A stretch of 36,472 nt of DNA from a virus. This document shows positions 42 to 35,644 of the stretch, piece by piece. The DNA lies in the IMG/VR virus record IMGVR_UViG_3300030329_005907, positions 1 through 36,472 of that record. One strand, given 5' to 3'. Every line of letters starts with the position of its first letter. Position 1 is the first letter of the stretch. The notes under the pieces are model-generated. The model did not search any database. It saw only the letters and a list, made by a program, of their open reading frames with translations, and was not told the origin of the DNA. The translations under genes and the position numbers were made by a program.

Positions 42-1292
42 ATGCCCCCCCCGATCAAAGACCGAATCAAAGACCTGCGACGAGTGAAGGCCTCGGACCT
101 GATTCCGAACCCACGCAACTGGCGTGCTCACCCTCCGGCACAGCAAAAGGCAATGGCTGCTGCTTTGGAGGAGATCGGGTTTGCCGATGCCGTCCTGGCG
201 CGGGAGACCGAGGCCGGCCTCGAATTGATTGACGGACATCTACGAACCGAGACGGTTCCAGATGAACAAGTGCCCGTCCTGGTTCTTGATGTGAGCGAAG
301 ACGAAGCCGACAAACTTCTGGCGACGCTCGACCCTCTCGCGGCAATGGCCACAACCGATAAAGACAAGCTCAACGATTTGATCGGCCACCTGACGGTGAG
401 TTCAGAAGAACTCGAAAAGGTCGTGCAGGGGGTGGCTGCCAGGGCAGGCATCCTCGCGAGCGATGACCTGGCGGATGACACAGTCGATGGGCAGTCAGAG
501 TTTGAGGAACTCATCGGAAAGTGGAAAACTGCGGTTGGTCAAAAATGGGAGATCGACTCGCCGAACAAGAAGACGCATCATTTGGTTTGTGGAGATGCGA
601 CGAAGGCCGAGGATGTGAAACGGCTCTTCGGTGACGCGACTCCATTCCTGATGGTCACGGATCCCCCGTACGGTGTGAACTACGATCCGAAATGGCGACT
701 GCGGGCCGGCTTGAATCATTCCGGGCAGCAGGTGTCAGCCGGCGACGTCAGCAATGACGACAACGCATCGTGGAAAGCCGCATGGGATCTGTTTCCGGGG
801 ACGGTCGCGTATGTCTGGCACGGCGGTCTGCACTCCGAAGAGGTCGCTCGCGATCTCGAGGCCAGTGACTTCGAGATCCGCTCCCAGATCATTTGGGTGA
901 AGCAGGCACTGACGATCAGTCGGGGAGCGTATCACTGGAGGCACGAGCCGTGCTTCTATGCGTCCAGGGGGACAGCGAACTGGGCCGGCGGCCCAAAGCA
1001 AAGCACCGTGTGGGAGATTGACAAGGTCCATGCCGTGCAGGGAGCCGGCGACGGGGAGTTCACTTTTCACTCGACGCAAAAGCCTCTGGAGTGCATGGCC
1101 AGGCCGATCGCGAATCACGGTGACAAGGCCGATGCCGTCTACGACCCGTTCTTGGGGAGCGGCACAACGATGGTGGCAGCCGAGCAGCTGGGTCGGCAGT
1201 GCTTTGGAATGGAAATTGATCCCGGCTACCTCGCTCTCATCCTCGAAAGGATGTCTGGACACGGATGTAAGCCAAGGAGGCTCGATAGCTGA
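42..1292 (+). CDS. ParB-like N-terminal domain fused to DNA methyltransferase
   Basis: Probable adenine-N6 or cytosine-N4 DNA methyltransferase with a ParB/Srx-type N-terminal domain, a fusion common beside phage terminase genes. The N-terminal part (about residues 10-100) carries the ParB-like stretch DLIPNPRNWRAHP and later IDGHLR. The catalytic motif DPPY (TDPPYGVNYD, about residue 205) precedes the AdoMet-binding motif DPFLGSGTT (about residue 370), the order seen in beta-class enzymes. The ATG at 42 is chosen. A TTG at 18 is in frame, and the frame is open to the left edge, so the gene may begin outside the window. The stop overlaps the next start by one base. It probably modifies phage DNA, either to evade restriction or in connection with packaging. 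Target site unknown. Confidence 0.85.
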   Translation: MPPPIKDRIKDLRRVKASDLIPNPRNWRAHPPAQQKAMAAALEEIGFADAVLARETEAGLELIDGHLRTETVPDEQVPVLVLDVSEDEADKLLATLDPLAAMATTDKDKLNDLIGHLTVSSEELEKVVQGVAARAGILASDDLADDTVDGQSEFEELIGKWKTAVGQKWEIDSPNKKTHHLVCGDATKAEDVKRLFGDATPFLMVTDPPYGVNYDPKWRLRAGLNHSGQQVSAGDVSNDDNASWKAAWDLFPGTVAYVWHGGLHSEEVARDLEASDFEIRSQIIWVKQALTISRGAYHWRHEPCFYASRGTANWAGGPKQSTVWEIDKVHAVQGAGDGEFTFHSTQKPLECMARPIANHGDKADAVYDPFLGSGTTMVAAEQLGRQCFGMEIDPGYLALILERMSGHGCKPRRLDS

Positions 1293-1771
1293 TGGGCAAA
1301 CGAGGACCGAAAAAGACTCCGACAGCGATTTTGAAATTGCACGGCAGCCGTGCCGTCGAATCTCGAAAAGGCGAGCCGCAGCCCCCTTCGGGCCGGCCTC
1401 GGTGTCCGGCCTTCATTGACAGCTATGCGAAGTCAGCGTGGAAGCAGCTGATTCCGCAACTCGAAGAAATGGGTGTGCTCACCCTGGTCGACAGGAATGC
1501 ACTCGTCCGGTACTGCCAGTCTTGGTCGCGGTGGAAACGGTGCGCCGAGTTCATCAACGACAACGGCGAGACTTATCCGCTCCGAGACAACGACGGGAAT
1601 GTGAAGTGCCTGCAGCAATGGCCACAGGTGGGAATCTACAACAAGCTCTCCGACAGCCTGCTCCGGCTCGAGCAGCAGTTCGGCCTGACTCCATCCGCCA
1701 GGGCTGACTTGAAGGTTCAAAAGGCACAGGCAAGCGACAATTCCGCGGCCCGATTTTTTGGAGTGTCATGA
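1292..1771 (+). CDS. terS: Terminase small subunit, P27 family
   Basis: DNA-recognition subunit of the packaging motor, 159 residues. The start (MGKRGPKKTPTAILKLHGS) followed by a basic, proline-rich segment is the signature of P27-type small terminases. The C-terminal half, with QQFGLTPSARADL, is also typical. It overlaps the methyltransferase stop by one base and the large subunit start by four (ATGA), so the three genes are probably translationally coupled. Family call rests on sequence pattern and on the position directly before the large terminase. Confidence 0.9.
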   Translation: MGKRGPKKTPTAILKLHGSRAVESRKGEPQPPSGRPRCPAFIDSYAKSAWKQLIPQLEEMGVLTLVDRNALVRYCQSWSRWKRCAEFINDNGETYPLRDNDGNVKCLQQWPQVGIYNKLSDSLLRLEQQFGLTPSARADLKVQKAQASDNSAARFFGVS

Positions 1772-3342
1772 TCAAGTCGGACCCATTCTTCTTTGATGAC
1801 GATGCGGCAAACCGTGCCTGCGAGTTTTTCCAACAACTCGTCCACGTCAAAGGTCCGCTCGCCGGGCAGCCCTTCGAGCTTGAGAAGTGGCAAGAGGAAG
1901 ACATCATCCGTCCTCTCTTCGGGTGGAAGCGTCAGGACGGCACCCGGAAGTACCGGACTGCGTACATCGAGATCCCTCGCAAAAACGGAAAGAGCACTCT
2001 CTGTGCCGCGATCGCTCTGTACCTGACCTTCTGCGACCACCCGGTTGAACTCGGTGCGGAGGTGTACTCCGTCGCCGGGGACCGAGATCAAGCGAGCCTG
2101 GTTTTTGATCCGGCCTGCGAAATGATCCGCCGGTGTCCGATGCTGAATGAGCGAGCGACGATTCGGTCATCGGTGAAGCGGGTCGTGTTCAAGGAGACCG
2201 GCAGCTACTACCGCGCCATCGCAGCCGACGTCGGAGGGTCGCACGGTTACAACGCGAGCGGAGTGCTCTTCGACGAACTGCACGTCCAGAAGACGAGGGA
2301 TCTTTGGGACGTGATGCTCACCTCGACTGGTGCCAGGCTCCAACCGATGGTGCTCGGGGTGACAACCGCCGGTCACGACAAGAGTTCGATCTGTTACGAA
2401 CTCCACCAATACTCAAAGGGCATTCTTGAAGGCCGGATCGACGACCCGACCTTCCTGCCAGTGATCTACGCAGCGGATCCCGAGGACGACTGGACCGACC
2501 CTTCCGTCTGGGCAAAGGCGAACCCGAATCTGGGAGTGTCGATCAGCGAGGACTACCTTCGTGATCAGTGTTTGAAGGCTCGCGAGTCAGCGGCCTACGA
2601 GAACACGTTTCGCAGGCTCCACCTCAACCAATGGACCGAGCAGTCGGTGCGAGTAATCCCGATGGAGGCCTGGCGAGACTGCCCGGGTGACGCTGACGAG
2701 GAGATGCTCGAAGGAGAGCGATGCTTCGCCGGTCTCGACTTGGCGAGCACACGGGATGTCACTGCGTTGACCCTGGTTTTCCCACAAGACGAAGGCCGGT
2801 TCGCTGTCCTGCCGTATTTCTTCGTTCCTGAAGAGGTGCGGACAGACCGCGATCGTCAGGACCGCCGGCAGACGCTGAACTTCGCAGCTGCCGGGCTGAT
2901 CGAGAAGACCCCGGGTGACGAAGTCGACGGCACATATATCCGCGAGCGGATCCTGCAACTTGCCGAGACGTTTGACATCGAAGAGATCGCTTTTGATCCG
3001 TGGAATGCGACACATTTCATTCAGTCGCTTGTCGACGCAGGTCTCCCGCACGACGCGATGGTGAAGTTCCCGCAGACGTTTGGGAATTACAACGAGCCAA
3101 TGAAGAAACTGATCCAGCTGGTGGACTACAGGAAACTGGATCACGGGGGGAACAAAGTTCTGGAGTGGATGGCTGGAAACACCGCAGCCCGGACGGATCC
3201 CTCTGGAAACATGCGGCCTGACAAGAGCAAGTCAGCCGACAAGATCGACGGAATCGTTGCACTGCTGATGGGCCTGGCACGCGCCATCCGGTCATCCGAC
3301 AGTGCGTACGACGATCGGGCAGAATTCATCACGATAGGGTAG
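1768..3342 (+). CDS. terL: Terminase large subunit
   Basis: ATPase and nuclease of the packaging motor, 524 residues. The Walker A-like motif is PRKNGKST (about residue 70) and the Walker B-like motif is GVLFDELH (about residue 168). The C-terminal nuclease domain shows the expected acidic positions in FAGLDLASTRDVT (about residue 320), IAFDPWNATHF (about 408) and SADKIDGIVALL (about 490). Length and motif order match the YmfN/Terminase_1 type that accompanies HK97-like heads. It starts on an ATGA overlap with the small subunit. Confidence 0.95.
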   Translation: MIKSDPFFFDDDAANRACEFFQQLVHVKGPLAGQPFELEKWQEEDIIRPLFGWKRQDGTRKYRTAYIEIPRKNGKSTLCAAIALYLTFCDHPVELGAEVYSVAGDRDQASLVFDPACEMIRRCPMLNERATIRSSVKRVVFKETGSYYRAIAADVGGSHGYNASGVLFDELHVQKTRDLWDVMLTSTGARLQPMVLGVTTAGHDKSSICYELHQYSKGILEGRIDDPTFLPVIYAADPEDDWTDPSVWAKANPNLGVSISEDYLRDQCLKARESAAYENTFRRLHLNQWTEQSVRVIPMEAWRDCPGDADEEMLEGERCFAGLDLASTRDVTALTLVFPQDEGRFAVLPYFFVPEEVRTDRDRQDRRQTLNFAAAGLIEKTPGDEVDGTYIRERILQLAETFDIEEIAFDPWNATHFIQSLVDAGLPHDAMVKFPQTFGNYNEPMKKLIQLVDYRKLDHGGNKVLEWMAGNTAARTDPSGNMRPDKSKSADKIDGIVALLMGLARAIRSSDSAYDDRAEFITIG

Positions 3343-3352
3343 GGGCAAGGAC

Positions 3353-4975: not shown

Positions 4976-5574
4976 TGAATGAGACACGAACAATCACTGC
5001 CGCAGAGACCGAGCTTCGGTTTGACGAGTCGGAAAACAAGATCGTCGGTTACGCAGCGGTCTTCAATTCACTCTCCGAGCCGATTGCCGGTCAGTTTCGG
5101 GAACGGATCCTGCCCGGGGCATTTCGGAATGTCGGAAGCACCGAGGATATCATTTCCGCAATCAACCACGACGACTCGAAGATCCTCGGACGGCGATCTG
5201 CCGGCAATCTGGAACTGACAGTGACCAAGCGAGGCCTTCGTTACTCGATCACTCCGCCGGACACCTCGTACGTGCGTGACCTGGTCGAAAACATCAAAGC
5301 CGGAAACGTCGCCGGCTCATCGTTTGAATTCCGGGTCCATGAAAAGGGGGAAGCGTGGGTCCAAGACGAAGACGGCGAGCCGATTCGTGAGCTCCGCGCT
5401 ATCGACGTGTTTGAAGTCGGGCCGGTTACTCGTCCAGCGTACCCAAGCACCGACGTCGCGGTGCGGAGCTTCGAGGCGTGGAAGTCGGCAAACGAGGAGC
5501 AGCCGGCTCCGCAGACACCGACTGATGTGTTGCGGGACAAACTTTCATTGACCGAGGCGTCTGGTCAGAGATAG
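4972..5574 (+). CDS. Prohead protease, HK97/U35 family
   Basis: Serine protease that matures the capsid, about 200 residues. The catalytic histidine is expected in SAINHDDSKILGRR (about residue 65) and the serine in GNVAGSSFEFRV (about residue 117). The FEVGPVTRPAYPST segment that normally follows in this family is present. The ATGs at 4972 and 4975 are both possible: 4972 gives a 4-base overlap with the portal stop, while 4975 is better spaced from AGGAG at 4963. The gene lies between portal and major capsid protein, the standard order. Confidence 0.93.
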   Translation: MMNETRTITAAETELRFDESENKIVGYAAVFNSLSEPIAGQFRERILPGAFRNVGSTEDIISAINHDDSKILGRRSAGNLELTVTKRGLRYSITPPDTSYVRDLVENIKAGNVAGSSFEFRVHEKGEAWVQDEDGEPIRELRAIDVFEVGPVTRPAYPSTDVAVRSFEAWKSANEEQPAPQTPTDVLRDKLSLTEASGQR

Positions 5575-7269: not shown

Positions 7270-7835
7270 TGGCTTTGGTAACAGTGACGGCAGCCACGCA
7301 GGAGCCTGTCACGCTCGCCGAGGTCAAAGACCACTTGGTGCTCGACCACGGTGACGATGACAGCTACCTTTCCACCCTGGTCGCTACGGTCGTCGCGTAC
7401 CTCGAGGCGGTTCAAGACCGGACGCTGGTCACGACCACCTACGACCTGAAGCTCGATCGGTTTCCGAGCGGAACCGAGGTGATTGAATTGCCGAGGGCAC
7501 CCCTGGCGTCTATCACCTCGGTCACCTATCAAGATACCGACGACGTTACGACGACTCTTGCGGCTTCAAAGTACACGGTGGACACAGCCTCCACCCCGGG
7601 CCGACTGCAGCCTGCCTACGACGAGGCTTGGCCGAGCACTCGTGGGCATGTCCACGACGTGACCATCCGGTTCGTCGCCGGTTACGGGGACGCTGGTGAT
7701 GTGCCGAGGCCACACCGGCACGAGATCCTGTTGCGGGTGGCCGACCTCTTCGAGAACAGAGAGGGGGCTGTCACTGCTCGCCACGAGGAGTCGTTTGCCT
7801 CCAAGTCATTGTTCCAGCTGAATCGGGTGTTCTGA
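7269..7835 (+). CDS. Head-tail connector, gp6/phiE125 gp8-like
   Basis: Adaptor protein thought to form a ring under the portal, 188 residues. The family pattern is visible in EPVTLAEVKDHLVLDHGDDD near the start, VVAYLEAVQDRTLVTTTYDL around residue 45 and VTIRFVAGYGDAGDVPRPHRH around 140. It ends in a helical segment. The position after the capsid gene and before the head-closure protein is standard for HK97-type phages. Starts overlapping the previous stop by one base. Confidence 0.87.
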   Translation: MALVTVTAATQEPVTLAEVKDHLVLDHGDDDSYLSTLVATVVAYLEAVQDRTLVTTTYDLKLDRFPSGTEVIELPRAPLASITSVTYQDTDDVTTTLAASKYTVDTASTPGRLQPAYDEAWPSTRGHVHDVTIRFVAGYGDAGDVPRPHRHEILLRVADLFENREGAVTARHEESFASKSLFQLNRVF

Positions 7836-8164
7836 TGCCAGCAGGAAAATACCGAGAACCAATTCGGGTCGAGGCACGCACCGAGACGTCACTGAACACC
7901 TACAACGAAGTGTCTCCGTCCTGGTCGGTGCTCCTCGAAACTCGTGCGAGCCTCGACGGTGCCGGCGGACGGGAGTTCGCAGCCGGAGGTGGGATGCGTG
8001 CTGACGTGACGCACCTGCTTCGGATCCGATCGAGCCGGCTGGCGAGAACGATCACCCCGAAGAACCGAGTGATCCTCGACGGACGCACTTTTGAGATCCT
8101 CGCTGCCGTGGACCGCACCGGCAGGCGACGCGAGATCGAACTCCAGTGCCGGGAGTCGGTCTGA
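7835..8164 (+). CDS. Head closure/head-tail adaptor protein
   Basis: 109 residues of mostly beta character, resembling the phage head-tail joining family (SPP1 gp16-like). Typical features are the N-terminal YREPIRVEARTETSLNTYNE, the TRASLDGAGGREFAAGG segment, and a C-terminal ILDGRTFEILAAVDRTGRRREIELQC. It would close the head after packaging and prepare the tail interface. One-base overlaps at both ends indicate a coupled structural operon. Confidence 0.85.
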   Translation: MPAGKYREPIRVEARTETSLNTYNEVSPSWSVLLETRASLDGAGGREFAAGGGMRADVTHLLRIRSSRLARTITPKNRVILDGRTFEILAAVDRTGRRREIELQCRESV

Positions 8165-8691: not shown

Positions 8692-9107
8692 GCACCTTAA
8701 AGAAGGCCATCATTGATTACTTGTTGACGCAGACCGCTGTGACGGACCTGGTCGGCACCCGGATTCGTCCAGGAGTGATCGAGCAAGGTCTCGCCAGGCC
8801 ACACCTCCGAGTCGATCAGACTGGCTCCGATGTTCACTACGCGATGTCGGGCAACACGGGCCTTGGCGAGACGTTTATTGAAATCGTCTGCGAGGCCGAT
8901 TCCGAGAAGGATGCAGCAGATCTCGCCGATGTCGTCCGCAAAGAGGTCGACGGCTTTTCGGGGACGTGGGGTTCGGTCTCGGTGAAGGCATCATTCTGGC
9001 GAGGGACGCGAGACACGAGGACCGCACCCTTGTCTGGCGGAGAGATTGGCCTGCCTAGTCAAACGATTGCCGTTGAGGTCTTCCACGAGATCGCGGTGCC
9101 TTCATGA
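8688..9107 (+). CDS. Tail completion/terminator protein, DUF3168-like
   Basis: 139 residues. The opening LKKAIIDYLLTQTAVTDLVG, followed by IRPGVIEQGLARPHLRV and a later HEIAVPS ending, fits the DUF3168 family of tail-terminator proteins that cap the tail tube and join it to the head. It overlaps the previous gene by four bases and the next by four. Gene order supports the assignment more strongly than any single motif. Confidence 0.8.
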   Translation: MSTLKKAIIDYLLTQTAVTDLVGTRIRPGVIEQGLARPHLRVDQTGSDVHYAMSGNTGLGETFIEIVCEADSEKDAADLADVVRKEVDGFSGTWGSVSVKASFWRGTRDTRTAPLSGGEIGLPSQTIAVEVFHEIAVPS

Positions 9108-9853: not shown

Positions 9854-10214
9854 CTCAATACTTGCTGCCAACGATCTCGAACAGACCGAGGTCACTGTCG
9901 AGGGATGGGAGTTTCCTGTCTTCGTGAGAGTGATCTCGGGACGCGAGCGGCAGCAGTTGGTCGAGAAGTGGCAGTTGGTCAAGGATGACGAAGCGGCCCA
10001 GCAAGACCTGCTCCCATTTGTGTGTGCGCTCACCCTGGTCGATGAGAACGGTGCGAGACCATTCGACCCAACCGAGGCCGGCGACCTTGATCTGCTGAAG
10101 TCCAAGGGTGCCAGGCAGCTGGAGGTGATCTACCACGCTGCGATGAAACTCAACGGCATGGAAGACGACTCGCTGGATGAGGCTGTTGCAAATTTTCAAG
10201 AGACGGGGAGTTGA
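9837..10214 (+). CDS. Tail assembly chaperone, upstream frame (gpG-like)
   Basis: 125 residues. It contains LEQTEVTVEGWEFPVFVRVI, SGRERQQLVEKWQL and an ALTLVDENGARPF segment typical of tail assembly chaperones preceding tape measure genes. Near its 3' end, at 10190, is the heptamer A AAT TTT in the correct register for a -1 frameshift into the downstream frame, so two products are expected: this short protein and a longer fusion. The ATG at 9837 is chosen because it has a purine-rich upstream region and begins inside the end of the previous small gene. Confidence 0.85.
   Translation: MSSLRDSILAANDLEQTEVTVEGWEFPVFVRVISGRERQQLVEKWQLVKDDEAAQQDLLPFVCALTLVDENGARPFDPTEAGDLDLLKSKGARQLEVIYHAAMKLNGMEDDSLDEAVANFQETGS
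10190..10196 (+). promoter_or_regulatory. Programmed -1 frameshift heptamer
   Basis: A AAT TTT fits X XXY YYZ in the reading frame of the upstream chaperone gene (codons GCA-AAT-TTT). Slipping by -1 reads AAA-TTT, then TCA-AGA-GGG and onward into the frame that is open to 10513. The fusion would be about 225 residues (120 plus 105). Programmed frameshifting at exactly this place, between the two tail chaperone genes before the tape measure, is conserved across long-tailed phages. Confidence 0.85.
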
Positions 10215-10513
10215 AGTTTTGGTTTCACCTCGCTCGTACCGTAACCCACTCCTCCGTGCGGGAAGCCCAGCGGCAAATTTCAGCACCGGAGTTTCTGCTC
10301 TGGAAAGCCCTCTACGAGATCGACCCCTTCGGGGACGACTGGCTTCAGGCAGCGACGATCACAACAGCGACCCTCTCTCCTTGGACAAAGCGAGACCTGA
10401 ATCCGAGACAGTTCATTCCTGGTCGGCAGATCCCACGAAGGCAGACCCCGGAGGAGGTCCAGCACCGGTTGAAGTTGTTCTTCGGTAAATTCGAGAGAGG
10501 ACGGGACGGATAG
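10211..10513 (+). CDS. Tail assembly chaperone, downstream frame (GT-type extension)
   Basis: Frame -1 relative to the upstream chaperone. It is open from 10181, after an in-frame TGA at 10178. It contains ISAPEFLLWKALYEIDPFGD followed by a Thr/Ala segment, similar to the DUF4035-type C-terminal chaperone domain (LWMAFYxIEPFG pattern). The only in-frame start near the beginning is a TTG at 10211 that overlaps the upstream stop, so production as a frameshift fusion from 10190 is more likely than independent initiation. It stops directly against the tape measure ATG. Confidence 0.82.
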   Translation: MKFWFHLARTVTHSSVREAQRQISAPEFLLWKALYEIDPFGDDWLQAATITTATLSPWTKRDLNPRQFIPGRQIPRRQTPEEVQHRLKLFFGKFERGRDG

Positions 10514-12178: not shown

Positions 12179-13123
12179 ATGGCACTGACAGTCACCGAGA
12201 CGTGGTCGGGGCAAACCGGCAACCTCGACTCTGAACTAGTGAAGACCTACGCGCGCACTTTCCGAGTCATTGCAACTGCCGGTGAGACCGTTGTGGACGT
12301 CGGCAATGCGACGGGCATTCCGACGCTCTGGGAACAGCACCCCTACGACTCACATTGTTGGTGCGACAAGGTAAACGTTAAGCGGATAGCCAATAGTCGC
12401 CAGGTGTGGGAGGTGACCACCACCTACACGAACAAGTTCGACGAAGATGACAAGGACGACGATAACCCGTTGAACCGTCCGTGGAAGCTCTCGTGGAGTT
12501 CCCAATCATTCCAGAAGGTTGCCGAGCGGGGCATCAAGCGAGAGACGATCGACGCAACGGGAGCGACGGTTGTAAATGCTCCGGCGGGCAACGTGGAAGG
12601 GCCGATCGTCAACAGTGCCGGCGACGGTTTCGATCCCCCGGTTCAGATCGAAGGCAGTGATTGGCAGGTGGTCGCGAAGAAAAATATCGCGACGGTCCCG
12701 ACCTGGTTGATGGACTATCGGGACGCGATTAACGCATCAGGCATCACGATCGCGGGGATCTCTTTTGGCTCGCAGGAACTTCGCATCTCTGGCATGAGCA
12801 TCGGAGAGTACACGGTTGAGAATGAAATCGGGTACTACCCGTTTGAGATCACGATCAACCAGAAGTCCGAGACGTGGATGCGGGAACTGCTGGATCAGGG
12901 GACGCACGAGATCCGGGTGATCAACGCCAACGGACAGAGCACCGAGAGCCGGATGCGCATTGTCGACAAGGCCGGTCAACATGTGACCGAGCCAGTTCGT
13001 CTCGACGGAAGTGGGCAAAAACTCACCCCGGACAATGCGGACATCGATAAATCGATCTTCATTCGGTACCAAGTCTACCTCAAAGAAAAAGACTTCAGTG
13101 CGCTAGGCCTGCCGACCACATAA
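12179..13123 (+). CDS. Probable distal tail or baseplate protein
   Basis: 314 residues, beta-rich, no named family recognised. It has an acidic loop (KFDEDDKDDDNP), a central FGSQELRISGMSIGEYTVEN segment and GYYPFEITINQKSETWMREL. The position after the tape measure is where distal tail proteins are encoded, and the length and beta content suit a tail-tip component. Structural role is inferred from position. Confidence 0.7.
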   Translation: MALTVTETWSGQTGNLDSELVKTYARTFRVIATAGETVVDVGNATGIPTLWEQHPYDSHCWCDKVNVKRIANSRQVWEVTTTYTNKFDEDDKDDDNPLNRPWKLSWSSQSFQKVAERGIKRETIDATGATVVNAPAGNVEGPIVNSAGDGFDPPVQIEGSDWQVVAKKNIATVPTWLMDYRDAINASGITIAGISFGSQELRISGMSIGEYTVENEIGYYPFEITINQKSETWMRELLDQGTHEIRVINANGQSTESRMRIVDKAGQHVTEPVRLDGSGQKLTPDNADIDKSIFIRYQVYLKEKDFSALGLPTT

Positions 13124-18116: not shown

Positions 18117-18119
18117 CCA

Positions 18120-23000: not shown

Positions 23001-23012
23001 CAACCTGGTTTT

Positions 23013-23944: not shown

Positions 23945-24267
23945 TGACGCAAGCGACCTTCTCGTTTGGGCAACCTGGTTCTTCGGAAAGGACCATCTGG
24001 GAGCAGTTCGAGGAGTATGACCAACGGCATCCAGAGGTGTGGGAGCTTTTTCAGGAGTTCGCACACTTGGCTCGGGATCGAGGACGGAGCCGCTACTCCG
24101 CCAGGGCCATCATGCATCGGATCCGTTGGGAGCGGGAAGTTGAACAGACCGTCGATGAGCCGTTCAAGATTTCAAACCTCTGGAGTTCTCGTTACGCGAG
24201 AAAGCTCATCGCGAGCGACCCGGAGTACTGGGACGGCTTTTTTGACTTGCGAGACATAAAGGAGTGA
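23944..24267 (+). CDS. Conserved phage protein of unknown function
   Basis: 107 residues. The pattern PEVWELFQEFAHLARDRGRS, YSARAIMHRIRWEREVEQT and NLWSSRYARKLIASDPEYWD resembles a family of about 100 residues found in many phage early regions. Mostly helical, with several Trp/Tyr. No biochemical role is known to me. The gene starts on a one-base overlap and ends about 100 bases before csrA. Confidence 0.75.
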   Translation: MTQATFSFGQPGSSERTIWEQFEEYDQRHPEVWELFQEFAHLARDRGRSRYSARAIMHRIRWEREVEQTVDEPFKISNLWSSRYARKLIASDPEYWDGFFDLRDIKE

Positions 24268-24564: not shown

Positions 24565-25439
24565 CTGACTGCCCGGAACCCGGCATCTACGAGGGGGTCG
24601 CCGACAAAGTGTACTTCGGTTGGGATGCGGTCAATAACTCCTCCCTCTCCCCTGCTCTTCGATCGATGGCGCATTATAAGGCAGCCCTTGAGCACAAGCG
24701 GCCTGCCACTCCGGCAATGGAGTTCGGTCGCTTCGTTCACACCGTCGTGCTGGAGCCGGAGATTCTGGCGAAACAGTATGTTGTGATCCCTGACCTGGTC
24801 GCCGAGCTTGAAGGCGAATACAAAAACCCCCGGGCAACAAAAGAGTACCGAGAAAAGCTCGCGGCCTTCCACGACCTTCATGTGGACAAGCAGGTCATCG
24901 AGGCAGACGCCTACGAGAAGGCGATCGCGATGATCGACTCGGTCAAACGGTGCTCGAAGGCTTCCGGCTACCTTCGCAATGACGGAGCGTCGGAAACCTC
25001 GATTGTCTGGAACGACAAGCTCACCGGGGTGCGATGCAAGGCTCGCATCGACAAGGTCGTCGAAAAGGGGCTGTTGGCTGACTTGAAGACCACGGCAGAC
25101 GCGAGCCAGTTTTCAAAGTCGATGGCCAACTTTGGCTACGCCAGGCAGGCGGCCTTTTACTGCGACGGCATGGAGACGCTGACAGGTGAACCCCACAGGC
25201 TCGCGTTTGTTGCGGTGGAGAAGGAGCCACCTTTCGGGACCATCTCCGCTCCTGTCAGCGAAGCAGCGATCGAATTCGGTCGCCGGCAGTACCAGCAGGT
25301 GCTGCGGAAGATCTGTGAAGCAGTCGCATACGACAAATGGCCGGCCTACGAGCAGCCGGCAGAGTTCGATTTGCCACTCTGGGCATACCAGTCAGAAGAC
25401 GTCGTCCTCAAGGTCGGGGGCGAGGAAGTGAGGCTTTAG
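24561..25439 (+). CDS. PD-(D/E)XK exonuclease, RecE/exonuclease VIII-like
   Basis: 292 residues. Hallmarks are NNSSLSPALRSMAHYKAALE near the start, FGRFVHTVVLEPE with the conserved His, and the catalytic core RCKARIDKVVEKGLLADLKTT (Asp...Asp-x-Lys). It ends with QYQQVLRKICEAVAYDKWP, as in exonuclease VIII-like phage proteins. It would digest double-stranded ends to feed strand annealing. The ATG at 24561 overlaps csrA by four bases. The frame is open further upstream but only as a shadow of csrA. Confidence 0.88.
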   Translation: MTDCPEPGIYEGVADKVYFGWDAVNNSSLSPALRSMAHYKAALEHKRPATPAMEFGRFVHTVVLEPEILAKQYVVIPDLVAELEGEYKNPRATKEYREKLAAFHDLHVDKQVIEADAYEKAIAMIDSVKRCSKASGYLRNDGASETSIVWNDKLTGVRCKARIDKVVEKGLLADLKTTADASQFSKSMANFGYARQAAFYCDGMETLTGEPHRLAFVAVEKEPPFGTISAPVSEAAIEFGRRQYQQVLRKICEAVAYDKWPAYEQPAEFDLPLWAYQSEDVVLKVGGEEVRL

Positions 25440-25453: not shown

Positions 25454-25852
25454 ATGGACATCAATTCGGCATGGCCTTCGTCCTGGTTAAAGGCCGTCGA
25501 CCTCAAAGGACAAGAGGTGACGGTGATCATGGAAGGCTGTGAATTGGAGGAAGTGGGGCAAGGAGCCGATGCCGAGCAGCTGCCTGTTCTGCGGTTTCAG
25601 GGACAAGCTAAAGCTCTGATTCTCAACAAGACCAACGGTCGTTCGATCGAAAAGCTCTACGGCAGCGAGACGCTGGGGTGGCCTGGCAGGCCGATCACTC
25701 TTTTCCCGACGACGACGCAATACGGATCCGAGGTGCGTGACTGCATACGGATCAAGGCTCCGGCGACAACACCGGCACCAGTCGTACCGCCGGAGCCTCC
25801 CCCACCACAGCCCCCGGCACCCGAGCCTCCCGCAACAGGGAGTTTCTTCTGA
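25454..25852 (+). CDS. Exonuclease partner with Pro-rich tail
   Basis: 132 residues. The first 100 look like a small beta-rich domain: SWLKAVDLKGQEVTVIMEGC, VLRFQGQAKALILNKTNGRS and YGSETLGWPGRPITLFPTTT. Genes of this kind regularly follow the recombination exonuclease in phages. The last 25 residues are almost all Pro/Glu/Ala and end in GSFF, reminiscent of the flexible tail plus hydrophobic tip of single-strand binding proteins. Single-strand binding or annealing is inferred. AAGGAGGG precedes the ATG. Confidence 0.72.
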   Translation: MDINSAWPSSWLKAVDLKGQEVTVIMEGCELEEVGQGADAEQLPVLRFQGQAKALILNKTNGRSIEKLYGSETLGWPGRPITLFPTTTQYGSEVRDCIRIKAPATTPAPVVPPEPPPPQPPAPEPPATGSFF

Positions 25853-26865
25853 TGGCCGGCGACTGGATAAAAATCAAAACGGACCTCCCCACCGATCCGG
25901 CTGTGATCAGGATCTCGATGGAGACCGGTCTCGAAGCCGATGATGTGGTCGGCAAGCTCGTGCGGCTGTGGTCTTGGGCAAACACGCACCTGGACGATGG
26001 TCACGCGCCAGGCGTGACACCCGAGTGGTTGGACGAGTTTCTTGAGTGCAGGGGTTTCAGTGAAGCACTGCTTAATGTCGTCTGGTTGGAACTCGACGGG
26101 GATGATGTGGTCATTCCGAAGTTCGATCGGCACAACGGAAAATCAGCGAAAGTCCGTGCCACCGCTAGAGAAAGGAAGAGGCGAGAGCGGTCCAGGGGAC
26201 AAAAGCGTCACGCTACTGACGTGACAGGTGCGGGACACACTTCTGACAGAGAAGAGAAGAGTAGAGAAGATATAACCCCCCCCCTTAACCCCCCCGGATC
26301 CGAGGCGGATCCCTTTCACCCGACTTGGCTTTGGATCCAAACCCGGCTCGAGGCTCTGGGGTGCTTTCAGGCGAAGAAGGCTCTCGAAGAGGCCAAGTCT
26401 CTCGGTGCGACCCCAGAGGGAGTGGTTGCCGTCTTGGAGCACGCAGCAAAGCACCCGGGAGCGTGGGGTCCGGGGGCAATCCGCAACAGAGTGTCTGTCT
26501 CCCACCCTGGTCTTTTGCCGGACCAAGGGTGGCCAAAACCATCGGAGGAATACCTGCGTCGAAGACAGGCTTCCTTGGAGGAGGAGGAGCGTAAAAAGAG
26601 TCGAGAGCGGAGCGATGTCGAACAGAGACGAGTTGAGGCAGTCAAAAAGGTCCACGATCAACTTGAAGTGGCCCACGGCTCGTACGTTGACTCGCTGACC
26701 AAGGACGAGGGGATGGAGCTTGCCGAGCGGCTCTTTGAAGAAAACAGTTTCTTCCTCCAGATGTTCCGTCGCCAGGGCATGACCGGATTGGCTCGGATCA
26801 TGATCATGTCGCGGTTGGCTGACGAGGAGGCCTCGGAGGAGCCGGAGGAGCCGGATGACGAATGA
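25852..26865 (+). CDS. Replication initiation/organiser protein
   Basis: 337 residues. The N-terminal domain (DWIKIKTDLPTDPAVIRISM, DVVGKLVRLWSWANTHLDDG, FDRHNGKSAKVRATARERKR) matches phage replisome organiser or DnaD-like N-terminal domains. A low-complexity linker carries C9 and C7 tracts (26276-26295). The C-terminal part is helical and charged, ending in MIMSRLADEEASEEPEEPDD. It would load the host helicase at the phage origin. It overlaps the exonuclease partner and the methyltransferase gene. Confidence 0.8.
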   Translation: MAGDWIKIKTDLPTDPAVIRISMETGLEADDVVGKLVRLWSWANTHLDDGHAPGVTPEWLDEFLECRGFSEALLNVVWLELDGDDVVIPKFDRHNGKSAKVRATARERKRRERSRGQKRHATDVTGAGHTSDREEKSREDITPPLNPPGSEADPFHPTWLWIQTRLEALGCFQAKKALEEAKSLGATPEGVVAVLEHAAKHPGAWGPGAIRNRVSVSHPGLLPDQGWPKPSEEYLRRRQASLEEEERKKSRERSDVEQRRVEAVKKVHDQLEVAHGSYVDSLTKDEGMELAERLFEENSFFLQMFRRQGMTGLARIMIMSRLADEEASEEPEEPDDE

Positions 26866-27802
26866 TACTCTTCGGCTCGGCAGCCTGTTCAGCGGCATCG
26901 GTGGGATGGACCTCGGCTTGGAACGTGCCGGCCTCGAGGTCGATTGGTTTGTGGAGAACAACCCCTACGCCAAGCGTGTCTTGTCGCGTCATTGGCCGGG
27001 GGTGCGGCAGTGGGATGACGTGCGAACCTTTCCGCCGGATCCCGTGGATGACTGGAAGGTAGACGTTTTGGCAGGAGGCTTCCCCTGTGTCGACATCTCA
27101 ACCATCGGGCTTTCCCGGGGAATCGACGGAGAGAGGTCTGGTCTTTGGGCCGACTTCGCCAGGTGCATTCGCAAACTGGAACCCGAGTACGTCATCGTGG
27201 AGAACGTCACAACGCTCCTTGCTGCCCGGGGAGGAATGGACCGAGTTCTCGGAGATTTGGCCTCTCTCGGGTTCGATGCAGAATGGACAAGTCTATCGCC
27301 GGCCCATTTCGGAATCCGACAAAACCGGTGGCGTGTATTCATTGTCGCGTGGAGAAATCAGGCCGGGAGTGTGGCCGACGTTGATCGCAGCGAGCGAGGA
27401 CAGTCACACGAATGGACGATCCTGCATCAGCCCATCGACCCGGTACCTTTTGCAGGGGACCAACCTATCCCCGGGGGAGTGCGAATCGATCACGGGCCTT
27501 CCGATCGGGTGGACGTTGGTCGACGAATAGCGGGGTGCGCGAATGCCGTGGTGCCACAGGTCGCCGAATGGATTGGTCGTAACCTGGTCGCTGCTCATCT
27601 AGAGCGGCTCAACGTCACCACCTGCTCGCTCTGCGATGTCAGGTTCGACCCCGAATCCGAAGGTGGGATCCGTGGCGAGATCGGAATCATGCCTGTGGCC
27701 TTCTGCCCGGTCTGCCGAAACGGTCTCTGGGATATGCACGAGCAACATCGGCTGCCGGTCTGTTGCGGGAAGTGTGATTGGTGCGAGGACGACGAATGGT
27801 GA
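26855..27802 (+). CDS. C5-cytosine DNA methyltransferase, Dcm-type
   Basis: 315 residues. Motif I is SLFSGIGGMDLGLERAG, motif IV GGFPCVDIS with the catalytic Cys (about residue 76), motif VI EYVIVENV, motif VIII RQNRWRVFIVA and motif X GCANAVVPQVAEWIG. A Cys-rich C-terminal segment (CSLCDV, CPVCRNG, CGKCDWC) resembles added zinc fingers. The target-recognition region between VIII and X is short and unusual. In another frame the same stretch encodes TRD-like sequence including LPIGWT, which normally precedes motif X. Activity of this frame alone is therefore uncertain. Confidence 0.88.
   Translation: MTNDTLRLGSLFSGIGGMDLGLERAGLEVDWFVENNPYAKRVLSRHWPGVRQWDDVRTFPPDPVDDWKVDVLAGGFPCVDISTIGLSRGIDGERSGLWADFARCIRKLEPEYVIVENVTTLLAARGGMDRVLGDLASLGFDAEWTSLSPAHFGIRQNRWRVFIVAWRNQAGSVADVDRSERGQSHEWTILHQPIDPVPFAGDQPIPGGVRIDHGPSDRVDVGRRIAGCANAVVPQVAEWIGRNLVAAHLERLNVTTCSLCDVRFDPESEGGIRGEIGIMPVAFCPVCRNGLWDMHEQHRLPVCCGKCDWCEDDEW
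27063..27530 (+). other. Overlapping second frame with methyltransferase-like content
   Basis: This frame is open for 155 codons inside the Dcm-type gene, with a GTG at 27087 as a possible start. It reads STSSWRTSQRSLL, EEWTEFSEIWPLSGSMQNG and YRRPISESD, then PGVWPTLIAASED and finally LSPGECESITGLPIGWTLVD. These are elements I recall from the TRD and motif IX region of many phage cytosine methyltransferase proteins. The main frame over the same bases carries motifs IV to VIII. Dual coding, a frameshift product, or two compensating indels are the candidate explanations. Confidence 0.55.
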
Positions 27803-28149
27803 ACAGCAACCAGAAGGGGAAGGTCGCTGAAAGGGAGGTCGCAAAGATTCTCTCGGAACTTTTCGGAGTGCCCGTGCGTCGGTCGCAGCAATTCTCGGGA
27901 GCGAATGCCGATGCGGATCTGGTCGGCTTGCCAGGGGTCCACGTCGAGGTGAAGCGAAGGGAGCGTGGGAATGTTCACAACTGGATGGATCAAGCCGTCG
28001 AAGACACGCTGACTGACATCCCGATGGTCGTTCACAGGCCGAGCGGCAAGCCGTGGTTGGCGACGGTGCTACTCGATGACCTGCCTGACCTGGTCTGCAA
28101 ACTATACCTGACACTCTCGTGGGAGCCTGACGATGACGCTGACTCCTGA
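27796..28149 (+). CDS. Holliday-junction-resolvase-like PD-(D/E)XK nuclease
   Basis: 117 residues. KGKVAEREVAKILSELFGV followed by RRSQQFSGANADADLVGLPG and VHVEVKRRERGNVHNWMDQA shows the Glu...Asp...Glu-x-Lys core of Hjc/RusA-type archaeal-like resolvases in phages. It would resolve branched DNA before packaging or during recombination. The ATG at 27796 overlaps the methyltransferase stop, and its end overlaps the next gene by 17 bases. Confidence 0.82.
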   Translation: MVNSNQKGKVAEREVAKILSELFGVPVRRSQQFSGANADADLVGLPGVHVEVKRRERGNVHNWMDQAVEDTLTDIPMVVHRPSGKPWLATVLLDDLPDLVCKLYLTLSWEPDDDADS

Positions 28150-29474: not shown

Positions 29475-30076
29475 TCACACAGCCGGGCGACATCATGGCT
29501 TGCTGGGGAACGGACTGGACGAGTCGGGGGATCAGTGCGGCTACCTGGTCGCCGATCGCTCCGAAGGGGCTGCGGCTCGGCCCGTCACATCTCGCAATCA
29601 TGTGCCAACTCTCCGATCGCACTCCGCTCTGGGTCGAGAGCACAACGATGTGCCGGCACCCGTGCTTTATCCGGGGAGAGAATGCCCGGGGGGTTCAAGC
29701 ACATCATCCAGAGGATCGGGTGAAAGACTACCTCGAGCAAGGTGGTCGGGTCGTCCGGTACAGCCTCACACCGATCAACACCCTGACGACACTGGAGACA
29801 CATCTCCTGATGAAGATCCTGATCAATCACTTCGTCTGCGCGAGGGTCGACTACGACCTTGGAGGTGCTTTGATCTCGGGGACAAGGGTGTGGCAGCTAC
29901 TTCACTCGTTCCCCGGCGCGGATCTCGATCGACTGTTCTGCTCGGAACTGGTCTCCGCAGTGCTTCAACGGTTGGGCCGGCTCAACAGAGCCAATCCGAC
30001 CCGGCACAATCCGGCGAGGTTACTTCGCCAGGCGGTGCGGCAAGGCGTCTACATGAATGCGGGGTCGGTTGAATGA
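29471..30076 (+). CDS. Permuted NlpC/P60-like hydrolase
   Basis: 201 residues. A His motif (LGPSHLAIMCQL, near residue 40) comes before a Cys motif (LDRLFCSELVSAVLQRLG, near 160), the order of circularly permuted papain-like NlpC/P60 (YiiX/YaeF-type) enzymes. CARVDYDLGGAL lies between them. Likely a cell-wall or protein amide hydrolase; beside a membrane protein it may be the endolysin. It is not a classical endolysin family. Overlaps the protease gene by four bases. Confidence 0.72.
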   Translation: MITQPGDIMACWGTDWTSRGISAATWSPIAPKGLRLGPSHLAIMCQLSDRTPLWVESTTMCRHPCFIRGENARGVQAHHPEDRVKDYLEQGGRVVRYSLTPINTLTTLETHLLMKILINHFVCARVDYDLGGALISGTRVWQLLHSFPGADLDRLFCSELVSAVLQRLGRLNRANPTRHNPARLLRQAVRQGVYMNAGSVE

Positions 30077-31038
30077 ATCGAACAGCAGTCGTTGTGACCG
30101 GCCTGCTCTGCTTTCTATTGAGCTCGCTGTTCTGCCCGGCGATCAGCGGTGGGTCGGATCGGAACCGATCTGACGTGTCGAACAAAACCAAAAGCCGACC
30201 TGCGATGGATCGCGTGCTGGCGGCAGCGAGTTGTCGCGTCAACGGCTGCAGCGGCACAGCGATCGAGTTCGGAGGAGGGTCGTGGGTCGTGACTGCCGAG
30301 CACTGCTTTCGGCTTGGGCAAGACGTCACTGTCGTCACCGGCGACAAGCTCAAGAGCAGCAGCGGCAAGGTGGTCGCGATCGATTCACGGGTGGACCTGG
30401 CACTCGTGCAGGTCGACCCCGGGCAGCTGACGGGTCGTGTTCCGGTTCCGTTGAACCTGCCGGATGGACCTTGGTCGGGAATTGGCTATCCCAAGGGGAA
30501 GGGACCGCAGTCGTGGCACGGTGAGTTTCTCGGGGCTGAAAAGATCACGAACCTCCCCCGTGCTCGTTGGGCATTCAAGATGAAGGGTGGACGGTTCGCC
30601 AACGGCTCGTCTGGGTCGGGAGTGTTTCGCGGTGGCGTCCTGGTTGGCGTCGCGACGCACATGGATGATTCCAAAAAGATCATCTACTCGTGCACGCTTC
30701 ACGACTTGCAGACTTTCTTATCGCGGGCTGGCAGGGATTCGCCAGGCCTCCGGGTCGCCGAGGAAGGCTCCGCGCAAATCAACAAGACCGCTGCCCTCGT
30801 CGGGACCGGGCCTGACAGCTGGGGTGATGCGGATCGCACGCGAGAGATCCTCGAACTCAAAAAACGAGTCGGGGAATTGAAAGGCACTGCGGGTCCGCCA
30901 GGACCACCGGGGCCACCGGGTCTAGGGATGGACCCATCCAAGTTGGAGGAAATCATCCGGCGACTGGAGTCGCTGGAGGCGTGGCAGCGGAACTTCCGCA
31001 CCACCGTTCGGATTCGTGTTCATCCCAAAGAAAGGTAG
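30073..31038 (+). CDS. Exported trypsin-like serine protease with collagen-like segment
   Basis: 321 residues. A signal peptide is visible (MNRTAVVVTGLLCFLLSSLF). The protease triad is in order: His in WVVTAEHCF (about residue 77), Asp in DSRVDLALVQVD (about 105), Ser in NGSSGSGVFRGG (about 180). After the protease domain comes a coiled coil, then GTAGPPGPPGPPGLG (about 275-290), a short collagen-like triplet run, then a second helix (LEEIIRRLESLEAWQ) that could trimerise. A collagen-like trimer carrying proteases on a virion or host surface is inferred. Rare in phages. Confidence 0.85.
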   Translation: MNRTAVVVTGLLCFLLSSLFCPAISGGSDRNRSDVSNKTKSRPAMDRVLAAASCRVNGCSGTAIEFGGGSWVVTAEHCFRLGQDVTVVTGDKLKSSSGKVVAIDSRVDLALVQVDPGQLTGRVPVPLNLPDGPWSGIGYPKGKGPQSWHGEFLGAEKITNLPRARWAFKMKGGRFANGSSGSGVFRGGVLVGVATHMDDSKKIIYSCTLHDLQTFLSRAGRDSPGLRVAEEGSAQINKTAALVGTGPDSWGDADRTREILELKKRVGELKGTAGPPGPPGPPGLGMDPSKLEEIIRRLESLEAWQRNFRTTVRIRVHPKER

Positions 31039-31450: not shown

Positions 31451-31771
31451 ATGACACACGATGTCGTTGAGCGTTTGCGGATCAGGCGAAAGGCACTCGC
31501 TGCTGATTCCGGTCTCGACGAGTCATATGACGTGGGAACGTACCCACCTGATGTGACAACGGTCGTGATGGACAAAGGCAGGGGGTGGCTCCCCCTGGTC
31601 GCCGGGCTTCTAACTGGTGGGCTTGGAACCGCCGGGGTGGCAGCGGCATTGGGTGCATTTGGCTCTGCCGCACCGATGGCTGCCCCCCCGGCAAAAGCAC
31701 AAGTGTTCGACGTGACAATCGAGTCCGTTGATGGCAAGCCGAAGGTCACAAGCGTCGAGGTGACTGAATGA
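31451..31771 (+). CDS. Hypothetical protein with a Gly/Ala hydrophobic segment
   Basis: 106 residues from the ATG at 31451 (MTHDVVERLRIRRKALAADS). The frame is open further upstream (ATG at 31382), and no strong ribosome binding site decides. A hydrophobic Gly/Ala run (WLPLVAGLLTGGLGTAGVAA) is followed by an Ala/Pro linker and a short beta end (AQVFDVTIESVDGKPKVTSV). Membrane association or a spacer in a fibre complex is possible. Overlaps the fibre gene by four bases. Confidence 0.6.
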   Translation: MTHDVVERLRIRRKALAADSGLDESYDVGTYPPDVTTVVMDKGRGWLPLVAGLLTGGLGTAGVAAALGAFGSAAPMAAPPAKAQVFDVTIESVDGKPKVTSVEVTE

Positions 31772-32736: not shown

Positions 32737-33014
32737 TGCCCGAGGAAATCACCATTCACGCATGGGGCAAGGTCGCGACGGTGACGGTTCCCGACGACCT
32801 GGTCGGGGTCGGCCCACAGTCATTTGTCAGGCTCGCTGCCGAAGACGAAGTGCCCGAGGGAATGACAGACGAGGAATTCGCGATCAAGAAGGTCATCGGG
32901 TTCGTCGTCGACACGATCAAGGCAGCAACGGCAAAGGAGGCAGCCAGGGACGCAGCCGACACCGTTTATTTCGTCGAGCAGCAAACTGACCAGATCACTT
33001 TGGAGCTTGAGTAG
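32736..33014 (+). CDS. Small protein between fibre genes
   Basis: 92 residues. An N-terminal beta part (EITIHAWGKVATVTVPDDLV) and a C-terminal helix (VVDTIKAATAKEAARDAADT) are visible, no family recognised. The ATG overlaps the fibre stop (TGATG). Possibly a fibre assembly factor. Confidence 0.6.
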   Translation: MPEEITIHAWGKVATVTVPDDLVGVGPQSFVRLAAEDEVPEGMTDEEFAIKKVIGFVVDTIKAATAKEAARDAADTVYFVEQQTDQITLELE

Positions 33015-33676
33015 TGGCAGGCGAGATTGTTTTCCCCTCTGGCGTAACCGGGCAGACTCTTTACGGGGTCGTGCGGTCATTTGCCAACACCGTATGGAAC
33101 GGGTCGAGCTTCGAGTCGTATGCGTCAGGCAACTGGGGAAACTACGACATCGCTCTCACCGAGCAGGGTAGCTCATCGGTCTACGTCGGTACCTTCCCGG
33201 GATCGATCTCTGCAGGGTCGTATCACGTCACCGTCTATCGCCAGGCTGGCGGCTCCGTGGCAGAAACCGACCCGGTCATCGGCAGCGGAGGGCTGGAGTG
33301 GACGGGGTCGGCTGTCCTGGTCCATTTCAACGCAAGCTCTGACACCGTTGACGTTGGGAAGGTCAGCGGCGACTCGACGGCTGCGGACAACCTCGAAGCG
33401 ATGCTCGAGGGGCTGCAGGTGGGCACTGTCGACAACTCGAACTTCACCCCAACGACGACTGCCTTCGAGACTGATCTGACGGAGGCAAGTGACGACCACT
33501 TCAACAATCAAGCGGTCCTGTGGCGAAGCGGTGCCAATGCCGGTCTCACCTTCTTCATCAGTGATAGCGTCGGCAAGACCGGAGGGATGGCTGGCACCAA
33601 GTTCACCGTCGACGCAATGCCGAATGCTGCGGCAAACGGAGACACCTTTCAAGTTATCGGAACCAAGGGAGCCTGA
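33014..33676 (+). CDS. Fibre or tail-surface protein
   Basis: 220 residues, GTG start overlapping the previous stop. Beta-rich, with TLYGVVRSFANTVWNGSSFE, SYASGNWGNYDIALTEQGSS and VYVGTFPGSISAGSYHVTVY. A second part has NFTPTTTAFETDLTEASDDH and FFISDSVGKTGGMAGTKFTV. The pattern matches extracytoplasmic beta proteins found in tail-surface gene clusters. No named family. Confidence 0.68.
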   Translation: MAGEIVFPSGVTGQTLYGVVRSFANTVWNGSSFESYASGNWGNYDIALTEQGSSSVYVGTFPGSISAGSYHVTVYRQAGGSVAETDPVIGSGGLEWTGSAVLVHFNASSDTVDVGKVSGDSTAADNLEAMLEGLQVGTVDNSNFTPTTTAFETDLTEASDDHFNNQAVLWRSGANAGLTFFISDSVGKTGGMAGTKFTVDAMPNAAANGDTFQVIGTKGA

Positions 33677-34129: not shown

Positions 34130-34132
34130 GCC

Positions 34133-35644
34133 ATGCTGCAGTTCTTTCTCAAATCCTCGACAGCGGCGGTAGTCGTCACCCCACCTGTGGTGACGGCTGC
34201 GTGGACGTCCGTTGCTCCGAGCGTAGAGAAGAACACATCGCCGGCTTCAGTCGTCGCCACCTGGTCGGCAGTGGTTCCGGCACCAGAAAAGTCCGTCGAT
34301 GCTGATCCGGTTGGTGCTTCGTGGTCATTGACGGCAGCTGGGCTGACAAAGACCACAGTGCCGAGCACCGTCACCGTTAGCAGCGGTGTTCCCTCCATCT
34401 CCGTTGGAAAGGCGGTGGCGGTCTCGGCCATTGTGGCTTCGTGGTCACAAACAGATCCGGCAGTGGGCAAAAGCCTAGACGCTGGCGCAGTCGGAGCCAC
34501 ATGGGCTGTCGCGGCTCCGGTAGTCGGAAGAGTCGTGCAGGCCACCCCGGTCACTGCAGCATGGGGAACCGTCGCACCTGCGTTTGCCAAGAGCGTCTCC
34601 CCCTCTCCGGGCCTGGCATCGTGGTCGACGGTCACCCCGAGCCGCACCAAGAAAGTCGCACAGACGGCAACCTCGGCGACTTTTTCTACCGTTGTTCCCT
34701 CGGTTTCGCAGTCAACGGGTGATTTGTCCGTTTCGGCGAGTCCGGTCACTGCCCAATGGGGCACTGTTGATCCGAGCGTCGCCAAGGGTCTGGACGCTTC
34801 GCCTGTTGCGGCTGATTGGTCAACTGTCGCTGCGGACCTCGGCAAGGCCGTCTCTGCATCACCCGTTGCGGCTGCTTGGTCAGTTGTCGCTGCGGGCCTC
34901 GGCAAGGCGGTCACTGCGTCACCCATTCCGGCTACGTGGTCCGTTGGTGCGGTAGTCGTTACGCGAGTGATTGCCACAGAGCCGATCGTGGCGACATGGG
35001 CAAGTGGCTCGGCGACCCCCTCGAAGGGGATCGACTGTTCGGCACTGACACTCAACTCTTCGGTCACTGCTCCGGTGATCACAAAGACGCGATCCGCTGG
35101 GGTCGTGGCGTGCACCTGGTCTTTTGGTCCTGTGGTCATCGAGAAATCGGTCACGCCAGTGCCACTCTCGGCTGCTTGGTCGATCGTCACCGGCACCCGA
35201 TCAAAGTCGGTCGACTGTGGCCTGTTGGCAGTCGGGCCGATTCTCAAGACCCCGAGCATCTCAAAGAGCATCACGACCGATCCAATAGCAGCGGCTTGGT
35301 CGCTCGTCGACGTGACATTGGTGATCGTCCCACCTGCAGGGACATCCCTCGACTACCGAGTGGAAGGTCGTACCCATTGGGTCGCACCCGGGGCTGTCCT
35401 GGCGTATCTGGGTGAAGGCCGGCTTCAAGCGAACAGCGGTGGCCGGCTGCACCTGCGTTGTGAGGGACGCACGCATTGGGACGGTGAAGGCCGGCTCCAC
35501 TACCTCGGTGAAGCCGACTTCGGGTTCGACGTGTCTCCCACCCTGGTCGGCTACCGAGGCGAAGGCAGTGTCTCGTTTGATGCGTCAGGCGAGGCCGGCT
35601 TCGCGACTGACACAAACCAACTGACATATGAGACGGTGCAATGA
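34133..35644 (+). CDS. Surface protein with about 19 tandem 20-residue repeats
   Basis: 503 residues. From about residue 20 to 400 the sequence consists of units of almost exactly 20 residues with the pattern x-A-x-W-S-x-V-x-P-x-x-x-K-x-V-x-A-x-P-V. Examples are AAAWSVVAAGLGKAVTASPI and TAQWGTVDPSVAKGLDASPV. About 19 copies can be counted. The last 100 residues hold a second repeat type (VEGRTHW, GEGRLHYLGEADF, YRGEGSVSF). Both are likely beta-structured and stacked into a rod or spike. Position among fibre genes suggests a receptor-binding or stalk protein. A long antisense open frame here is a repeat artefact. Confidence 0.8.
   Translation: MLQFFLKSSTAAVVVTPPVVTAAWTSVAPSVEKNTSPASVVATWSAVVPAPEKSVDADPVGASWSLTAAGLTKTTVPSTVTVSSGVPSISVGKAVAVSAIVASWSQTDPAVGKSLDAGAVGATWAVAAPVVGRVVQATPVTAAWGTVAPAFAKSVSPSPGLASWSTVTPSRTKKVAQTATSATFSTVVPSVSQSTGDLSVSASPVTAQWGTVDPSVAKGLDASPVAADWSTVAADLGKAVSASPVAAAWSVVAAGLGKAVTASPIPATWSVGAVVVTRVIATEPIVATWASGSATPSKGIDCSALTLNSSVTAPVITKTRSAGVVACTWSFGPVVIEKSVTPVPLSAAWSIVTGTRSKSVDCGLLAVGPILKTPSISKSITTDPIAAAWSLVDVTLVIVPPAGTSLDYRVEGRTHWVAPGAVLAYLGEGRLQANSGGRLHLRCEGRTHWDGEGRLHYLGEADFGFDVSPTLVGYRGEGSVSFDASGEAGFATDTNQLTYETVQ

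Follow-up and report, generated by a model that had tools for sequence, protein, structure and literature searches.

What would hold a short word on one strand of a phage genome, and at nearly equal intervals from end to end? The question is raised by IMG/VR virus record IMGVR_UViG_3300030329_005907, a marine bacterial virus whose entire record of 36,472 bp was analysed (hereafter the window) and in which the hexamer CCTGGT recurs throughout. An exact count over the whole window gives 39 copies on the plus strand, while the reverse complement ACCAGG, far from being comparably frequent, is absent. The original prediction, a hand count of about 39 and zero, is thereby borne out with all of its coordinates. 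Based on sequence analysis we propose that CCTGGTY may constitute an array of site-specific and strand-specific putative nick sites on the phage DNA, a reading to which we assign a probability of about 40%.

The pyrimidine predicted to follow the word is present in every copy (C in 28, T in 11), whereas the H proposed to precede it fails once, at position 2097, where the base is G. Flanking CCTGGTY there is no strongly conserved position and hence no longer motif. CCTGGT is the most polar of all hexamers (z of 6.2, or 9.5 once corrected for codon use), and no degenerate hexamer performs better. Counts in the three thirds of the window are 14/0, 12/0 and 13/0 (here and below forward/reverse), with polarity and evenness present in each. 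The individual sites are as follows, where L011 is a relative described further below.

278..284, plus: site 1, CCTGGTT, in a plus-strand gene, CTG-GTT frame
1483..1489, plus: site 2, CCTGGTC, in the TerS gene, CTG-GTC frame
2097..2103, plus: site 3, CCTGGTT, sole copy after G; CCTGGTA at the same L011 position
2772..2778, plus: site 4, CCTGGTT, not in L011
3378..3384, plus: site 5, CCTGGTT, TWF frame; not in L011
3998..4004, plus: site 6, CCTGGTC, PGR frame; L011 has CCTGGTA
5280..5286, plus: site 7, CCTGGTC, not in L011
6213..6219, plus: site 8, CCTGGTC
7376..7382, plus: site 9, CCTGGTC
7920..7926, plus: site 10, CCTGGTC, SWS frame
8747..8753, plus: site 11, CCTGGTC
10034..10040, plus: site 12, CCTGGTC
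10418..10424, plus: site 13, CCTGGTC, PGR frame; preceded by the shortest gap (384)
11641..11647, plus: site 14, CCTGGTC
12702..12708, plus: site 15, CCTGGTT, TWL frame
14339..14345, plus: site 16, CCTGGTC, PGP frame; preceded by the longest gap (1637)
15363..15369, plus: site 17, CCTGGTC
16359..16365, plus: site 18, CCTGGTC, intergenic
17361..17367, plus: site 19, CCTGGTC
18563..18569, plus: site 20, CCTGGTT, intergenic
19512..19518, plus: site 21, CCTGGTC, antisense in a minus-strand gene
20774..20780, plus: site 22, CCTGGTC, antisense in the FGE-domain gene
21635..21641, plus: site 23, CCTGGTT, antisense in the integrase gene
22316..22322, plus: site 24, CCTGGTC, antisense in the integrase gene
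23004..23010, plus: site 25, CCTGGTT, intergenic, 4 bp from the 5' end of tRNA-Gly
23974..23980, plus: site 26, CCTGGTT, PGS frame
24794..24800, plus: site 27, CCTGGTC
25482..25488, plus: site 28, CCTGGTT, SWL frame
26506..26512, plus: site 29, CCTGGTC, PGL frame
27583..27589, plus: site 30, CCTGGTC
28089..28095, plus: site 31, CCTGGTC
29544..29550, plus: site 32, CCTGGTC, TWS frame
30639..30645, plus: site 33, CCTGGTT
31594..31600, plus: site 34, CCTGGTC
32798..32804, plus: site 35, CCTGGTC
33316..33322, plus: site 36, CCTGGTC
34260..34266, plus: site 37, CCTGGTC, TWS frame
35115..35121, plus: site 38, CCTGGTC, TWS frame
35542..35548, plus: site 39, CCTGGTC

The gaps between these sites range from 384 to 1637 bp with a mean of 928 and none shorter, in agreement with the predicted figures, and their dispersion corresponds to a circular coefficient of variation (CV) of 0.311. 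Uniform placement would leave all gaps at 384 bp or more with a probability of 1.9e-9; in 200,000 simulations of such placement equal evenness never arose. No other of 1,320 words with 5-8 bases is as even as CCTGGT, the next unrelated one having a CV of 0.59. The measure Lv, the local variation between consecutive gaps, which is 1 for random and near 0 for regular placement and is insensitive to gradients in density, is 0.170 for CCTGGT. Were any single site lost, the resulting gap would measure 1,226 bp or more, the largest existing gap being 1,637 bp.

Copies within plus-strand genes span all three frames (20 CTG-GTY, 7 TGG-T and 5 CCT-GGT), four lie antisense within minus-strand genes and three are intergenic, so that orientation is independent of the genes, as had been predicted. 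Since every frame is used and antisense and intergenic copies occur, selection acts at the DNA level. The view that the pattern is a mere by-product, whether of codon use, of strand skew or of chance given the number of words, could draw on the 20 of 39 copies that are CTG-GTY (Leu-Val) codons, and polar purine-rich words are common in phages. This explanation is, however, opposed by the distribution of the sites just described and by synonymous-codon shuffles, in which proteins and codon use are preserved (2,000 within genes and 2,000 genome-wide). Within-gene and genome-wide shuffles yield 18.9 and 19.7 forward copies (maximum 31; observed 39), 9.3 and 10.3 reverse copies (minimum 1 and 3; observed 0) and a gap CV of about 0.95 (minimum 0.43; observed 0.31). 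None of the 4,000 matches the observed count, the absence of reverse copies or the evenness, and the same polarity and spacing were not recovered. The earlier expectation of about ten copies of each orientation thus fits the reverse strand, while codon use predicts about 19 on the forward strand. In a blind scan of 176 sequences the combined score of the window word was -33, compared to -13 for the next phage, a case which failed closer inspection. We therefore regard a by-product as very improbable.

Which known systems, then, combine strict polarity with even spacing? It had been held that no precedent explains both, a view that does not survive comparison with the mapped nick motifs of tf-like Pseudomonas phages, which are strictly polar and locally even. 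In phage tf 14 single-strand interruptions have been mapped at TACTRTGMC on the top strand only (PMC3517423), and in Rembedalsseter 13 interruptions at WACTRTGAC, a motif also found in relatives (PMC11780129). In both phages the nicked motif is missing from the opposite strand and its copies are mostly intragenic (PMC3517423, PMC11780129). The motifs were published as 'not evenly spread' (PMC11780129) because their density falls along the genome. With this gradient allowed for, the nick motifs of most tf-like phages are clearly regular. WACTRTGMC occurs in ten such phages with 7-18 copies on one strand and 0 on the other at an Lv of 0.08-0.30, and nine of the ten give a P value for regularity of about 0.01 or less, where the Lv P values presuppose independent exponential gaps. 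In a further related phage (G207) the motif, present 7/0, is less regular (Lv 0.45, P 0.12). This local regularity of the mapped nick motif is not described in PMC3517423 or PMC11780129. Across the tf-like phages (G203-G208, W01-W07) the gaps tend to widen along the genome, with about 0.7 kb near one end and about 6 kb near the opposite one.

The window shares with the tf-like and LUZ24-like Pseudomonas phages a short asymmetric word with numerous, locally evenly placed copies that are confined to one strand and lie mostly inside genes whatever the direction of the gene. It differs from them in the word itself and in carrying an integrase, whereas those phages are lytic podoviruses; moreover, nicks are proven there, while the window is known from sequence alone. 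The phiKMV-like phages and T5, which we liken by description, also possess one-strand, sequence-specific nick motifs of unsettled function (PMC3517423), with other consensus sequences and few major sites. Of the explanations compared here, the single-strand break sites known from some other viruses fit the pattern best.

If the word is indeed a nick array, a role that was among the candidates of the original prediction, a phage-specific nicking activity would target CCTGGTY and interrupt one strand about every kilobase, leaving the other strand whole. Forward copies would be retained at roughly regular intervals, while reverse copies would be purged, since a nick in the second strand close to a forward site would produce a double-strand break. 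Copies too near each other would decay as redundant, and this decay together with a requirement for coverage may account for the lack of closely spaced sites. From the signature we infer the nick, the enzyme and a benefit, which could lie in packaging, ejection or recombination.

The absence of reverse copies might also reflect evasion of type III or other orientation-dependent restriction, in which only head-to-head sites are cut and one orientation is purged. For this T7 provides a documented single-orientation precedent with its EcoP15I sites (PMC3874151). The strong avoidance of other words in the genome is in line with such evasion, as are the ACCAGG copies of sister phages (see below), which are replaced in the window, often synonymously. 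It predicts, however, neither the twofold forward excess over the codon expectation nor the even gaps. All EcoP15I sites of T7 share one orientation (36/0), yet they are randomly spaced, with an Lv of 1.03 and gaps down to 7 bp; thus, purging of one orientation creates no even spacing. Restriction evasion, which the original prediction had listed as a candidate role, is therefore disfavoured as the whole explanation, and we consider it rather unlikely. With regard to avoidance in general, CTCAG/CTGAG (0/1 versus 30 expected) and GGGCG/CGCCC (5/3 versus 58/37) are depleted on both strands, as are, also strongly, CGGCCG, TCCGGA, TTCGAA and CAGCTC/GAGCTG. Such broad word avoidance has the look of an escape from numerous restriction systems.

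How old is the pattern, and is it tied to a gene? A colinear sister phage comprises the contigs L307 and L308 (37.6 kb, most proteins 50-85% identical), which we infer to be one phage from their colinearity and shared sample; it carries CCTGGT 34/34, and the related contig L309 20/32. At the codons homologous to ACCAGG copies of the sisters, the window in no case carries the word, and the peptide is unchanged in 10/21 and 9/17 cases. A second polar relative, L011 (74% DNA identity over 4.1 kb), has CCTGGT 6/0 with even gaps and an Lv of 0.14 within a span of only 4 kb (1-4070). No more than two of these six positions are shared with the window; the sites thus change place, whereas their spacing and polarity are retained. 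Taken together with the non-polar sister, this shows that the pattern is lineage-specific and maintained despite site turnover. The seventh base differs as well, being always a pyrimidine in the window and A (CCTGGTA) in 5/6 copies of L011 (Fisher P 5e-6), as if the word that is recognised had shifted from one relative to the other. The CCWGG sites of L011 1-4070 consist solely of CCTGGT (6) and CCTGGG (2) in a single orientation, with no CCAGG, CCTGGA or CCTGGC.

The window genes that bear on a possible recognition enzyme, and on the host, are the following.

18..1292, plus: N6/N4 DNA methyltransferase adjoining the terminase (PF01555); amino-terminal part about 64% like that of the sister, methyltransferase (MTase) part diverged
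26855..27802, plus: C5-cytosine DNA methyltransferase (Pfam PF00145), absent from sister L307+L308; candidate specificity partner, since the sister is non-polar
36116..36448, plus: HNH endonuclease near the terminase (PF01844), a possible nickase
22928-23000, minus: full-length tRNA-Gly(CCC) gene beside the integrase

The two methyltransferase genes raise the possibility that a methyltransferase of phage or host origin targets CCTGGT, with one strand being marked at intervals for strand identity or protection in the absence of nicking. The non-polar sister lacks the C5 enzyme and has diverged in the MTase half of the N6/N4 enzyme, and the change of the seventh base in L011 is what a drifted recognition domain would give. 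Against this, L387, whose MTase domain is 70% identical, has CCTGGT 1/2 in 11 kb and 6/6 in the whole contig, no polar CCTGGT is present among 76 contigs with related C5 enzymes, and modification alone gives even spacing no reason. A methylation mark thus appears quite improbable. Likewise, the 80 contigs sharing the N6/N4 MTase domain show no polar CCTGGT; therefore, no gene is yet tied to the word. Besides the C5 methyltransferase, three small open reading frames (ORFs) at 17694-18856 and an ORF at 28133-28525 are present in the window and absent from the sister. The suggested connection of the word with CCWGG sites and a Dcm-type enzyme is only suggestive: the lack of the C5 methylase gene in the non-polar sister favours it, but CCTGGC is common on both strands of the window (27/38), so that there is no general CCWGG effect. 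CCTGGA is depleted, and GCCAGG is the most enriched hexamer of the whole window (38 versus 14). In the methyltransferase at 18-1292 the conserved N-terminal part and the differing catalytic/target part possibly reflect a specificity swap beside the terminase genes.

Alternatively, the word could be a polar signal for a machine travelling along the DNA, i.e. a primase or Okazaki start, a Chi-like element, a KOPS or a word for the direction of packaging. Polarity switches nowhere on the genome, as a one-way process would give. The length of Okazaki fragments is close to the roughly 1-kb spacing of CCTGGT, and the Chi sequence of E. coli, GCTGGTGG, has a core similar to it. Chi, KOPS and other chromosomal polar words are likewise short, oriented and enriched. 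As to the host, the tRNA-Gly(CCC) gene of the window has a 96% match to a Planctomycetota genome and the window contains a DUF1580 gene, which we take to be typical of Planctomycetota, so the host is probably a planctomycete. The integrase had no match in phage records and weak matches only in bacterial genomes. Two Planctomycetota chromosomes were selected by their 92-96% similar tRNA-Gly genes and sampled over 0.55 Mb in total, although they may not belong to the genus of the host. CCTGGT is neither enriched nor polar in either of them, with 100 copies versus 109 expected (strands 54/46) in G033 (0.15 Mb sampled) and 314 versus 336 (strands 160/154) in G099 (0.40 Mb sampled). A host Chi or FtsK-type word, as had been suggested, is thus disfavoured. 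The colinear sister lacks the pattern and no phage primase or polymerase is found among the window genes searched, which also argues against a signal for a moving machine; we hold it to be unlikely.

Returning to the nick array, several observations weigh against it. CCTGGG/CCCAGG is 0/0 in the window (expected 18 and 9) and CCTGGTR is 0 on both strands, losses that do not follow from a simple model of nick sites. The HNH gene (36116-36448) is common to the sisters without the pattern. The ten tf-like phages form one related group and are not ten independent cases, and they carry 7-18 copies at graded density compared to 39 uniform copies in the window. No window protein has a convincing tf relative (blastp and phmmer gave chance-level matches, a weak test because the papers name no tf nickase). 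Stated more generally, the lineage would keep a genome-wide one-strand 'ruler', a 7-bp word at intervals of about 1 kb, for an undescribed DNA-level process, be it nicking in a new phage group, strand marking or priming; for this broader proposal we see somewhat less than even odds.

The role of site-specific phage nicks has been unsettled for about fifty years, and they are usually found by chance in cultured phages. The window would represent an extreme case with 39 sites, recognised from its sequence. As the comparison with tf-like phages indicates, proven nick motifs have in common a signature that can be measured and that is lacking in restriction evasion: they are strictly polar and, locally, evenly spaced. 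Polarity and even spacing may therefore serve as a sequence-only signature for recognising nicked or strand-marked phages. It lends itself to a simple database screen and constrains function, as breaks must come at intervals. If the sites are nicks, their uniform distribution along the genome would speak against models of packaging start in which breaks are required at a single end.

Further cases were sought as well, although where fragments of about 12 kb were scanned the power to recognise them is limited. In the blind scan, with the criteria applied to the window, the sole tf words among those listed were ACTGTG (23/1) and TACTGTG (13/0), with scores well below that of the window. A search for other even words covered 202 related-phage loci, where the best rival, GCCGCA in L018 (1-11946; 15/3, CV 0.26, minimum gap 502), is at chance level for 266,006 word-locus pairs. 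CCTGGC in L387 (11/0) was rejected because it is 43/2 and uneven in the whole contig, a strongly skewed genome with many polar words. GGGAGA in L162 and GCGGGAG in L103 were dismissed since the reversed control pattern was equally polar or the copies were clustered. L467-L469 (contig G223) have little in common with the window beyond the N6/N4 methyltransferase and show an extreme whole-genome strand skew (e.g. CGGCGG 69/0, CGACGC 56/0).

At the DNA level no similar phage was found in the GenBank phage collection with the first 25 kb of the window as query. The window encodes small and large terminase subunits, the HNH nuclease, an integrase, an exonuclease VIII-like protein, a replication initiator and the two DNA methyltransferases, and its genes run mostly in one direction apart from a minus-strand block at about 19.2-23.3 kb. 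The tRNA-Gly(CCC) by the integrase is a whole gene, although an attP core would be expected to contain merely the 3' half. A protein with a glycosyltransferase family 2 domain is encoded at positions 14761-16323, immediately following the tail-module genes.

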